Origin: Acanthamoeba sp. SK_2022b
Taxonomy: Eukaryota; Discosea; Longamoebia; Acanthamoebidae
DNA: 64,000 nt
Direction of reading: 5' to 3'
Assembly: GCA_027943245.1 (NCBI GenBank)
Contig: JANDJZ010000016.1
Coordinates: 124,001-188,000 of the forward strand
Of this stretch, positions 7,950-64,000 are shown in pieces; position 1 is the first letter of the stretch, and each line of letters opens with the position of its first letter. A program made the translations under genes and the position numbers. The notes below the pieces were generated by a model that saw only the letters and a list, made by a program, of their open reading frames with translations, searched no databases and had not been told where the DNA came from.

Positions 7950-8020
<71 letters not shown>

Positions 8021-59458: not shown

Positions 59459-60841
59459 TCACTGGAAGAAGGGTTCGCAGTTGTCTTGTGGGACATACCC
59501 GAGGTTGGCGATAGTCTCCTCCAGGTCGAATACCTGGATGTCGACGTGCGTGAGAAGCAAATTGGGGCGGTATCGTGCACTAGTGATGCCTACCCGGGCG
59601 TCGTTATTACTGACAGCGTAGGCGATCATGAACGGAATCCCGGCGGCAGCAGGTTTCATCACCACCTCGATCGCCTTCAATGCAAGCGCATCGCGTAATA
59701 TGAGCATAGGTTGGTGAGGCAACGGTGAGCTGCCAATTTACCTTTCTGAAGAAACCAGCGGCATCGCGCTGCGAGAGGTACATGGCCCGCATGTGGGCTT
59801 CGTTGACTGTGCCCTTCACGTCAGCGGGGTCATCTGCGTCGGCTACAATGAGCGTTTGACGCAGCGGAATGTTGGCGAGGTTGTTGGTACCGTTCAGTCT
59901 GATCCATCCGATCCGAAATACGACAGTTTCGATGCGCATGTGGAGAGAGAACAGCTTGCACAGGTCTTCGCCACAGGTCTTGGACACCCCGTAGAGCGAA
60001 TCAGGGAAGGCAAAGTCCTGTACAGGCGGATGATCGCAGGGGTAAGGTCCCCGGTCAAAACTGCAAGGCACATCGCGGGGTGGGCATCACCCTGAGGCGC
60101 ACGGATCCTGGCTTGATGCGATCCCGATCCAATGACGCTGCGTGGTGGAGGCAAGCCTGAGCTTCGTTCATGCGTGGCCTCATGAGGCTGGCTTACCAGT
60201 CTCGGCAGGGTCCGCACACATAGTCCCGTTCTGCGTGTGGTTCGTCGACGCAAAGATGAATCTGCCGCGAGCGTGAGTAGTTGGACCGAGGCTCAAGCAA
60301 ATTGCGCGGTAGGCTAACCTCTTGACGTTAGCTCGTACGCATTCCTCGAGCACATTGTAGGTCGCCTCCACGTTGTTTTTAAGCACCACGTGCGGTCCTA
60401 GAGTACATTCATGGTACTGGTCAGATTACCGCGACTTAAACGTAAACCAGTTGCACCCACCTTGCTCGGGGAACGGCACGGCCATGGAGTATGCAGCGAG
60501 GTGGACGACCACGTCCAGTCCCTCGAATAGACCTGGCCGCACTGGTGAATCCAGTCAACTGGCCTCGTTGCTTGGCGGAAGAGTGGTACCCTTAACTTGT
60601 TCCCGGTCAGAGAGGTCGACAACGGTAGTCTCGTAGGGCTCCTTCTCCATCTGTAGCGTCTCTGCATCCGTGCCTGCGAAGTTGGGCAAGTGAGCCAAGC
60701 TCCCATGGTGGTAAACGCTGCGGGCCGTGTACACTCGGGTTTTTCGAAGGAGAAAAGCTTTAGTTGATACTCATCCTTCAGCTGTCTAATGAGTATCGTG
60801 GCGAGCCGTCCTGTAGCACCAGTGATCCCCACCTTCCTCAT
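59459..60841 (-). CDS. Uronate-dehydrogenase-like SDR/NAD-epimerase
   Basis: Start ATG 60841 (MRKVGITGATGRLATILIRQ), eight or so exons, stop at 59459. The Rossmann motif is GITGATGRLA (GxxGxxG). Further: TVVDLSDREQVK, GLDVVVHLAAYSMAVPFPEQ, NNVEATYNVLEECVRANVKR, FIFASTNHTQNG, FPDSLYGVSKTCGEDLCKLF (catalytic YxxxK), TVVFRIGWIRLNG, and the C-terminal DDPADVKGTVNEAHMRAMYL. SxNH, LYGVSKxxGE and FRIG typify uronate dehydrogenases and similar NAD-dependent sugar epimerases, which oxidise hexuronic acids or epimerise nucleotide sugars. The exact substrate is uncertain. The gene starts only 151 nt from the FANCI start on the opposite strand. Confidence 0.86.
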
Positions 60842-60991
60842 CAGGCAAACACTCACGCTCTTTTCCTTTTTCACCGTTCTTTTTCTTTTCTTTTCTTTTC
60901 AGAAATGAAACTTTTAGAAGAACTATTTCCGTCACAAAACAAGGAAAAGCGTAACAGGACAGATCGCAGGTTAGGAAGAAGGGAAGCGGTG
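60842..60991. promoter_or_regulatory. Divergent promoter region (uronate-dehydrogenase-like / FANCI)
   Basis: 150 nt between the two start codons. It contains a long pyrimidine tract ending in CAG at about 60902; this could be an intron acceptor of a 5' leader or promoter sequence. An in-frame ATG at 60905 exists and would add 29 residues before MARTK. Confidence 0.5.
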
Positions 60992-63900
60992 ATGGCTCGC
61001 ACCAAGGTTTCAGCAAAGTACAGTGCCAACGATACGTTTCATGGTTTTAAAGGTTAGCATAGCTAAATTGATCATGCATTTAATCTCCCTCCTTAGGAAA
61101 TCAACAGGCGGAAAGAGTGTTAACAAAGGGGTGAGTTCTAAGATAGCACCCATCAACAAAACGCTGGGAACGAAGCGGAGGTGCGTTCCTCTCTTTGGAC
61201 TTTTGAGGACACGCTTTACAGAGGTTCGGGGTTTCACAGGCGCCCGGCGGAAGATGACGAGGAAAACGGAGACGCCGAAGAGAACGAAGTGCTCAGCGAG
61301 GGCGAGCAGCACGAGGAGGAGCCTAAGAAGCTGGCAGCTCCCGCCAGGCGCTGCGTGCAGAGTGCGTACTACAACTTCGCTGTGTTGGCCTTGCTCATAC
61401 CGCGCCCACTTGTAGTCCTTCAAGAAGACCCCGACGAAGCGGCTGAGGGCAGCTTGGACGATGAAATTGTAGAGATATGGGAGAACAAGACGCATGCCCA
61501 CATTACTGGATCCCAGGTACGTGTTCTGCATCTCACCTTAAGGAGAGTTAACCGCTTGATATAATGACCACGTCGTGCAGGCCAGTAGTCTCTCTGCTTC
61601 GGCTGCCGACAATCAAGGCCTCGTACGCCTGACCAACAAGATCCAATCGGTGCGCATTGGGCATGAGACAGGCGAGAACGACCACCCGTACTGACTGTTT
61701 GATGAATGGGCAGGTATCCGAGCGAGAGCTGCTGGGCTATGTCAACAAACGGACTGCAATGGAGGGCAACTTGGTACAGCTCCTGAAGGCAGTCTTTCAG
61801 GGCCTCCCCTCGTACACCGACAAAGGGAAGGAGATCCGCGGAGCTGTTCTCCACCGCGTGATGTGGCTCATCATCAAAGGAAGGCTTACCAACAAGAAAG
61901 CCGAGGAGGCCGTCAATGCTCTGCTGCCAGAGGTAATGCAATGCTGCCCCTCTTTTCGGAGAGGCAGATGCACTCATCCTATGCCTACTCCTGGCCTCAG
62001 ATGGACGCCATTTCCGACGAGGACTTCATTGACCTGGTCGAGGTCATACTGTGGGGAATTGAAAAAGGTGTGCCTGCTGTGAACAGTTGATTTTGTGGAC
62101 TCCCCATGGATGGCTAATACGCTCAGTCTGACAGCTCGATCGGCCGAGGGACGGTTCCTGGCCTTCCTGCCCAAGACTCTCGCAGCGATAGAGCGGCTTT
62201 CTGCAGTGGGAGTTGATGAGCACACCAACAAGACGGGCCCGCAGTACAAGAGCCATCTCATAGCAAGGTACCGCACATCATCGCGCAGGTAGCGTCAGGT
62301 CATCTGCTCGTCATTTACCGGCGTGACTGCACACTAGGCTGTGTGGTCTTGACTGGTCCGAACAATTGGTCACCCAAATCGCAGCTACGTTGCGAGAAAC
62401 GACCCTCTCACACGATGACATGCAGCGGGTCATACACAAAATCATCAGGTGAGCCACGCGTTTATGCGCTCTCGTACTACAAAGGCAGTGCTCTAATCCT
62501 GGTGTCTCGTCTTCCAGCTTCTTCAAGGAGATCGACCTGAACGAGCTGCCCTCCCTGATCTACCAGCTTATTTTGCTGGCCACAAAGGGCGCTACCGATA
62601 TCAAGGCAAGTCTGTTGCGTGGTATCGCCAACCATTTGGAGAGCGAAGGCAGGAAGTACGATGAAGAGTACGTATGATTTTCACTGTGCGTTGCTGTTAC
62701 GTAATTCCTTGGCGCGCCTCACACCCTTCCCTTTCAAGGAGTCCCGATAAGCGCACGACCGCGTCGAGCGGCGAACAGCTGCTTCGCCACATCGAGGGCA
62801 CCATTCTGCTGCACCTTCAGTTTGCGATCAAGCAAGACCAGGTAATCTATCTTGCCGAGTGCGGCACTGTACCTACTAACTGTCCATGACTCGCCTCGAC
62901 AGGAATTGGGTCGCGCTTTCTTGAAGGTGTTCAAGAGCGAGAACTTCCCCCTAACCTCGTTCACAGTAGCTCTTCTCCTGTCAGTTGCACGAATCCAGCG
63001 CTTTGCCGATCAGGCTCTGGAGACCATCAAGACAGCCATTCAGGTGCGTACCTTCTGTGCTGCGAAGCTTGACTCGATCTGACAACGCCTCCCTCCTCTA
63101 GACCTATTACAAGGAACAGCAGAAAAAATCAAAGTCACACTGGATGGAGAAGATGCGGCAGCACATGGCGCCAACAGGTACCCTCTTCCTCTCCTGCTGA
63201 TGTGAACGGTTTGCGCTCACGCGTTGGACCAACGTGACAGTCAACTTGGATGCTGCGATTCTAGCGACGATCAAGCATTCAGCCTATGGATGGGACCACA
63301 TCACCCCATCCCTCGTCCAGCTGGGCGTCATGCTCATGGACTCAGTGTCGGCCTCCTCGCCGACAACGATCGTTACCTCCGCCTCCGCTGCGTCCGCCTC
63401 TTCGGCGAGTGCGGCCACAACATCAACTCCCACAGCGTCTACTTCTCTCATCTCCGTTTCCTCACCGAACAAGTGAGTGCTGCTTTCTCTTTCGTTCCTT
63501 CAACTGGTAGACTGATGTTGCTCTTCTCTCCCCCTCCCTCCTCTGTCTTCAGGACGCTTCTTCGGCTTGGGGTAGGCATCCTGCTGGAGACCTTCAAGGT
63601 GCATGAGAGTGTCAGAAACGAGATCCTCGAACAGATTCTGTCCCGCGTGGTACGGCATCCCCGGTTGGACCGGACCTAGCAGCAGGTTCCAACTGCCGGA
63701 TGGCTTACCCGGGGGATACAACAGATGATCAGCGGCGAGAACAGCAACGTGCTGCAGTACATTATATTGCTGTCTTCCATTTCACGAGAGTGCCAGGATC
63801 TCCTGCTCGGCAGCGGCGGCGAGTACCTACCCCGCATCAAAGAGGTCTTTGACTATCTGTCCTATGTGCCGCCCACTGTCACCCGAGCCCTGCTCGCCGC

Positions 63901-64000
63901 TGTTGAGGTACTTGCTCATCATCAGGGTGGCCTCGACTTTCGACTAACTGCTCGTTGCTCCATGATGGGCAGCCCATCATGGCCATCAATCCCTCCTTCC
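60992..64000 (+). CDS. FANCI orthologue with N-terminal histone H3-tail-like extension (3' truncated by window)
   Basis: Exons: 60992-61017, 61097-61180, 61222-61361, 61416-61515, ~61581-~61648, ~61715-~61933, then many more to 64000. Residues 1-15 are MARTKVSAKKSTGGK, matching histone H3 at 11 of the first 14 after Met. A Lys-rich then acidic linker (RRPAEDDEENGDAEEN) leads to FANCI: LTNKIQS, SERELLGYVNKRTAMEGNLV, KAVFQGLPSYTDKGKEIRGA, ELPSLIYQLILLATKGATD, LRHIEGTILLHLQFAIKQDQ, TVALLLSVARIQRFADQALE, YGWDHITPSLVQLGVMLMDS, LGVGILLETFKVHESVRNEI, LEQILSRV and FDYLSYVP. The Lys in LETFK corresponds to the human Lys523 monoubiquitination site. FANCI pairs with FANCD2 to clamp DNA at crosslinks. 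Exons join in phase, but cDNA is needed to prove the H3-like start. Confidence 0.9.

Follow-up and report, generated by a model that had tools for sequence, protein, structure and literature searches.

Does the histone H3-like sequence that opens at ATG 60992 belong to the FANCI protein encoded downstream of it, and what would such a tail do on a repair protein? The window, that is, the whole stretch of 64,000 nucleotides analyzed here (C262:124001–188000), is part of a 44.9 Mb genome in 1,129 contigs, whose size and intron density point to an Acanthamoeba-like amoeba; the whole FANCI gene was modeled by hand from the genomic sequence. The first model comprised 41 exons with a single open frame of 1,576 amino acids, and removal of a 54-nt intron gave a refined protein of 1,558 amino acids. 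The gene is complete and extends past the end of the window, with its stop codon at the contig position equivalent to window position 68935. As an earlier note on this DNA had read it, ATG 60992 begins MARTKVSA, which is spliced to KSTGGK (onto KKSTGGKSVNKG), and phase-matched exons then lead into FANCI. A donor AA/GTACAG at 61018 and an acceptor TTAG/G at 61096/61097 give the joined reading MARTKVSAKKSTGGKSVNKGVSSK, and the reading past ATG 60992 and this first splice continues as KKSTGGKSVNKGVSSKIAPINKTLGTKRRRPAEDD. The donor of exon 1, which the same note had called strong, is not strong when judged by the splice-donor consensus, having an A at position −1.

When residues 1–500 of the initial FANCI model served as the query, at least 23 proteins reached E ≤ 1, the scored set being capped at 7,992 candidates. 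The best of them, P0001, is a protein of 1,559 amino acids on a 5,686-nt contig, 86% identical to the refined FANCI; it begins MARTKVSAKKSTAGKSASKG, with the opening MARTKVSAKKSTAGKSASKGAGPKAVPIKTLGTKRRRP, and then runs into FANCI. Its open reading frame of 4,680 nt is uninterrupted by introns on its contig, so that the contig looks like a transcript. P0001 agrees with the start, the splice joins (including that of MARTKVSA to KSTGGK), and the fusion in the window, and it exposes the 54-nt intron at 61362–61415. The phase-compatible path into FANCI claimed earlier is borne out at its joins by P0001; the region 61240–61516, taken before as one exon, consists of two exons separated by that intron. 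The features of this region are listed below.

60839..60841, minus strand: likely start codon of a divergent neighbor, MRKVGITGATGRLATILI..., with 150 nt between the starts of the two genes.
60905..60991, plus strand: alternative in-frame start, ATG 60905, adding 29 residues before MARTK that are absent in P0001.
60992..61017, plus strand: exon 1, with the ATG, MARTKVSA, and the AA of the next Lys codon, ending in phase 2; the start of P0001 has the same residues.
61018..61096, plus strand: intron 1, 79 nt, GT...TTAG; the join agrees with ...SAKKST... in P0001.
61097..61180, plus strand: exon 2, (K)KSTGGKSVNKGVSSKIAPINKTLGTKR(R), which completes the H3-like tail and adds a basic stretch.
61240..61361, plus strand: exon 3a, from (R)RPAEDDEENGD... 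to ...PARRCVQ, an acidic linker aligned to P0001.
61362..61415, plus strand: the 54-nt intron, GTGCGT...TGTAG, located inside exon 3 of the first model; its would-be residues are missing from P0001.
61416..61516, plus strand: exon 3b, (I)LQEDPDEAAEGSLDDEIVEIWENKTHAHITGSQ, in which the 111-residue extension ends, phase 0.
61581..61649, plus strand: exon 4, ASSLSASAADNQGLVRLTNKIQS, the first FANCI-homologous exon, without an in-frame ATG, aligned to the N-termini of vertebrate FANCI.
61714..64000, plus strand: FANCI exons 5 to 16 (numbering of the first model, the last one cut by the window end), beyond which the gene continues to its stop codon.

The neighbor that starts at 60839..60841 is, as we presume by eye, NAD-epimerase-like. 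Use of ATG 60905 could place the H3-like tail internally and bury its ARTK end, although the start of P0001 at MARTK makes this less likely. A scan of 60800–61100 for bacterial promoters gave no match, a result without weight for a eukaryote. That exon 4 has no ATG in frame had been noted before and is confirmed in the sequence, and the concern that the tail might be a separate transcript, or that FANCI might start elsewhere, is largely answered by P0001, the relative with the same start and joins and with tail and FANCI in one intronless frame. At the level of sequence comparison, this agreement establishes that the H3-like tail belongs to FANCI and that the gene fusion is present here and in one relative.

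The tail itself, in the numbering of the mature protein, reads A1 R2 T3 K4 V5 S6 A7 K8 K9 S10 T11 G12 G13 K14 and continues S15 V16 N17 K18 G19 V20 S21 S22 K23, with H3-like residues standing at H3 spacing from the N-terminus. Fifteen of the first 26 residues match canonical H3; K4, K9, S10, T11, K14, K18, and K23 are in place, and as far as K14 the tail departs from H3 by Q5V, T6S, and R8K. When the 48-residue tail was compared with the PDB, 115 sequences were found at E ≤ 1 (best E 0.005), and every one of the 60 listed among them carries the name of H3 or of an H3 derivative. No Pfam family was found in the 129-residue extension of the first model, and the full protein matched no histone family in Pfam, only the FANCI domains and one unrelated match below the cutoff. 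A missed histone fold after the tail is thus ruled out, in agreement with the earlier reading.

A DNA pattern for the start, M-x-R-T-K-x-(S/T)-A, has eight matches in the genome and one in a backwards control. The eight are the H3 genes at C86, C256, C734, and C1002, FANCI, C439, C694, and C409, the last of which reads MRSTKMSA and has no further H3 likeness known. A pattern for the KSTGGK-type core has 14 matches compared with five in the control. At nine of the 14 the codons give exactly KSTGGK, namely in the four H3 genes, the FANCI exon, the H3-fold genes at C356 and C387, C617 (a histone, H2B by eye), and C1065. A narrower form, in which the Lys must follow an R- or S-type codon, is found at six places, with none in the control; the codon preceding the core in FANCI straddles the splice site. 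Since the core alone is not unique, the claim that the resemblance exceeds chance rests on start and core together, and the two patterns occur together (within ~110 nt) only at C86, C256, C734, and C1002, all of them H3 genes, and at FANCI. A recent capture from an H3 gene was also considered and rejected: the sole other match of the tail in the genome is the H3 gene at C734 (E 0.079), and the codons are unlike those of the H3 genes.

Some of these places merit separate description. C1065:1889–1906 is another exact KSTGGK reading in this genome. The genes at C387:2612 and C356:33773 are, by eye, nearly alike and of H3 fold, with KSTGGKRPHWQKRT upstream; in both, the match to the histone profile begins at position 49, and they are possibly centromeric H3 variants.

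Whether other non-histone proteins of this genome carry such a tail was outside the reach of a single window. The pattern ATG-GCN-MGN-ACN-AAR (MARTK or MASTK) gave 35 matches in the genome and 13 in the control, and all 35 translations were read. Besides the H3 genes, only those at C439, C694, C129, and C262 are H3-like by eye beyond MARTK. At C129:60134 onwards the start is MARTKQTERSTY, after which the sequence leaves H3. In this protein, MARTKQTERSTYTLKQQ..., only ARTKQT agrees with H3, and the chain is helical-looking by eye; searches of Pfam, NCBIfam, and the PDB with pieces of it gave no match. It was not counted as an H3-tailed protein, the likeness ending after ARTKQT. The other two, a VWA-RING protein and a zf-PARP protein, start with fuller H3 tails than FANCI itself.

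C439:105594 downwards, minus strand: VWA-RING protein, with a nearly perfect H3 tail carrying T11V, MARTKQTARKSVGGKAPRK; hand-made model.
C694:21243 downwards, minus strand: zf-PARP protein, MARTKQTARKSTGGMAPRKP..., with a PARP-type zinc finger and an acidic stretch; hand-made model.

The zinc finger of the latter scores 54.2 bits against a cutoff of 39.3. The VWA-RING protein begins MARTKQTARKSVGGKAPRKY..., followed by a VWA domain, with the RING at the C-terminus. Its tail matches the Pfam family PF15715 (PAF) weakly, with E 0.023 and 15.9 bits under a cutoff of 23.4. With its first 40 residues as the query, three of 37 candidate proteins reached E ≤ 10. P0024 (E 2.6e-9) shares the VWA-RING architecture and is by eye a close relative. 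P0025 (E 0.30), labeled as coming from the rotifer Rotaria socialis, also combines VWA and RING and shares the same first 19 residues, including T11V; over its full length it is 34% identical to P0024 (E 9e-123). Because the first 19 residues with T11V are identical at an overall identity of 34%, the VWA-RING branch appears to be either old or horizontally shared, and its H3 tail in P0025, P0024, and the C439 protein would reflect ancient conservation or horizontal transfer. The third match, P0026 (718 residues, E 0.71), combines an AAA ATPase with DUF7025, and its H3-like MARTKQTARKSVGGKAPRKQLA, again with T11V, starts from residue 7. The T11V form of the H3 tail recurs across unrelated architectures.

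The window protein retains the FANCI body. Pfam recognizes domains S4 (162.6 bits), S2 (136.4), S1 (136.3), HD2 (131.3), and HD1 (62.2), all over the cutoff, whereas S3, with 21.4 bits, lies under its cutoff of 25. Solved FANCI structures align from residue 124 (best 7ay1, E 3.6e-102). As the likeness to animal FANCI begins only at about residues 110–124, the 111-residue extension, of which the H3-tail mimic forms the first ~24, is to be seen as an addition. The ubiquitinated lysine of human FANCI is K523, as described in PMC9890228. Human K534 is the last residue of LRKAMFANQLDARK, and K523 is therefore the Lys of LRKAMF. This motif is kept at residues 655–660 of the window protein, and with it the equivalent of K523. 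The equivalent of K534 is Leu in both the window FANCI and P0001; among 132 compared sequences with the motif (142 FANCI records minus ten lacking an LRKAMF-type motif by regular expression) Lys occupies this position in 131, the exception being P0001. Loss of the ubiquitination lysine is thus ruled out, only the K534 equivalent being altered. The SSQCSQ-type stretch that follows in vertebrate FANCI is missing from the alignment of the window protein. FANCL is present in the genome, with FANCL_C found at C385 in two exon pieces (46.4 and 34.2 bits), and searches of the genome for FANCD2 gave no match, a result that is uninformative and cannot show absence.

The wider search for FANCI proteins gave 494 matches, of which the best 120 were examined; altogether 145 protein records were collected, 142 of them from the FANCI searches. 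Among these 142, MARTK or RTK near the N-terminus was found in P0001 only, the other 141 having no such tail; 22 records fall short of 1,200 residues and may lack their N-terminus, the named records are from animals, and the sample excludes protist FANCIs other than P0001. Among the papers listed in the literature searched, which included no preprints and few subscription papers, neither a FANCI with an H3-like tail nor an H3-tailed VWA-RING protein was found. The FANCI tail appears to be a form of histone mimicry not yet described on this protein.

Comparison of the two FANCIs shows how the extension varies. Residues 1–12 (Met being 1) are identical, and residues 16–30 are 47% identical. Within mature residues 1–25, P0001 differs at positions 12, 16, 17, 20, 21, 22, 24, and 25, so that K4, K9, S10, T11, K14, K18, and K23 are common to both proteins; all lysines up to position 23 (K4, K8, K9, K14, K18, and K23) are kept in P0001. 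The H3 resemblance at K4, K9, S10, K14, K18, and K23 reported from the window thus holds in both. The composition is likewise as first described, a basic segment (12 Lys/Arg and no Asp/Glu in residues 1–40) being followed by an acidic one (24 Asp/Glu and five Lys/Arg in residues 41–112). Positions that match canonical H3 are kept in 12 of 14 cases, compared with five of 11 for the others (one-sided Fisher P 0.043), and with the genome's own H3 as the yardstick P is 0.077. With two sequences compared, preferential conservation of H3-matching positions is suggestive only. Furthermore, if the whole protein is cut into 12-residue windows, 35% of them show no difference between the two FANCIs, and the identity of residues 1–12 is therefore weak evidence of selection.

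The last point bears on the best surviving alternative, which we consider unlikely, namely that the extension is a basic, probably disordered tail (KTLGTKRRRP followed by the acidic run) serving nuclear import or DNA binding, its H3 likeness being a relic of a captured exon that has no function today. The identity of TLGTKRRRP in both proteins, while residues 16–30 and the acidic linker drift, would fit such a role, as would the alteration of H3 residues Q5, T6, and R8 and the unremarkable identity of the first 12 residues. A relic would not, however, be expected to keep its residues mostly at H3 positions or to retain every H3-equivalent lysine.

The reading that we put forward, which to our minds stands in even balance, is that the FANCI tail serves as a ligand for readers of the H3 N-terminus or as a substrate for H3 modifiers. 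Met1 would be removed, as the next residue, Ala, is small, freeing an ARTK end that could bind readers of the H3 N-terminus such as PHD fingers. The lysines at H3 positions 4, 9, 14, 18, and 23 could serve as substrates of H3 writers, and the tail would then couple the FANCI clamp to factors that modify chromatin where DNA is crosslinked or forks have stalled. This proposal draws on the precedent of PAF15 and UHRF1, on the recruitment of FANCD2 by UHRF1, and on the support that H3K4 methylation lends to FANCD2. The PHD finger of UHRF1 binds residues 2–11 of PAF15 with a Kd of 2.2 µM, compared with 1.5 µM for H3, and PAF15 is ubiquitinated after this binding of its H3-like N-terminus, as described in PMC7060239; a change in PAF15 equivalent to K4A had only a small effect there. 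UHRF1 is described as a sensor of crosslinks that recruits FANCD2 (PMC4386029), and the chaperone activity of FANCD2 as enhanced by H3K4 methylation, at forks in vertebrates (PMC6039718). With V, S, and K in place of H3 Q5, T6, and R8, the tail may be too unlike H3 for some readers or writers. In the genome, SRA matches, sought as signs of a UHRF1 homologue, are over the cutoff at C1053 and C876 and below it at C663; no PHD or RING was seen by eye in minus-strand open reading frames of at least 55 residues at C1053, one of these three places. Given the fusion in a relative and the H3 tails on two further non-histone proteins of this genome, repair factors in this amoeba may come under the action of proteins that read histones.

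A rather less probable alternative than that of a relic requires no outside reader. The tethered H3 tail would act in cis, competing for or tuning the H3-binding surface of the histone chaperone FANCD2–FANCI. As described in PMC6039718, H3 peptides are bound by FANCD2, with a mild gain in binding on monomethylation of K4, and the chaperone activity of FANCD2 is supported by methylated H3K4. FANCI too is named in the title of the 2012 paper by Sato et al. The data of PMC6039718, however, come from vertebrate FANCD2, and the same source itself calls the influence of K4 methylation on binding mild.

Somewhat more doubtful still is damage-induced serine ADP-ribosylation at the K9–S10 pair, by which PARP signaling would mark FANCI directly. 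KKST is kept in both FANCIs, and the same genome encodes the zf-PARP protein with an H3 tail. Work on Dictyostelium implicates ADP-ribosylation in the repair of crosslinks (PMC5087659), and an H3(1–21) peptide and its S10A form are reagents of the HPF1 study (PMC5344681). Marking of Ser10 would nevertheless leave the retention of the ARTK start, K14, K18, and K23 unexplained. Finally, a gene-model artefact, with MARTK and KSTGGK as chance words of non-coding DNA joined by supposed splicing, would be in keeping with a donor of exon 1 that is not strong, a GC3 of 0.53 in exons 1 and 2 compared with 0.74 in the FANCI body, and the presence of each word elsewhere in the genome, but is ruled out as far as sequence can show, to the point of being barely conceivable, by P0001, the same protein in one open reading frame, and by the joint occurrence of both words only in H3 genes and FANCI.

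If the preferred reading of the tail as a reader ligand or writer substrate is extended to the other two proteins, we can speculate that FANCI, the PARP-zinc-finger protein, and the VWA-RING protein, each presenting an H3 N-terminus, belong to a lineage-wide tagging of repair and ubiquitin proteins, a tentative idea that we would not call probable. Were such a system real, H3 readers and writers would treat damage-response factors like nucleosomes. In vertebrates FANCD2 is linked to histones, and a FANCI that bears its own H3 tail offers a natural experiment on that link. With three H3-tailed proteins in one genome, of which the VWA-RING protein also occurs in a rotifer, long H3 self-mimicry becomes testable as a recurring device.

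Among known systems, the animal FANCIs (7ay1, 3s4w) have the same body as the window protein, with domains S1, HD1, S2, HD2, and S4 and the K523 equivalent. The window protein differs from them in its added H3-like N-terminal extension, in lacking the SSQCSQ-type stretch, and in the sub-cutoff score of its S3. PAF15 (PCLAF), a PCNA-binding protein and the nearest case that is understood, likewise carries an H3-like N-terminus on a replication or repair protein, with lysines further along. The FANCI tail is nearer to H3 (MARTK...KSTGGK) and, unlike that of PAF15, stands at the start of 111 residues added to a large repair solenoid, without a PIP box there, residues 1–111 containing neither Phe nor Tyr. 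Short internal H3 mimics with ARKS or ARKT motifs, such as those of G9a and viral NS1, also recall H3K9 through a lysine followed by serine or threonine, whereas the likeness in FANCI runs from residue 1 over ~24 residues at H3 spacing. In the VWA-RING proteins (C439, from the same genome, P0024, and P0025 of Rotaria socialis) the tail is a nearly perfect H3 N-terminus with T11V and the body consists of VWA and RING, the same N-terminal device being placed on another non-histone protein.
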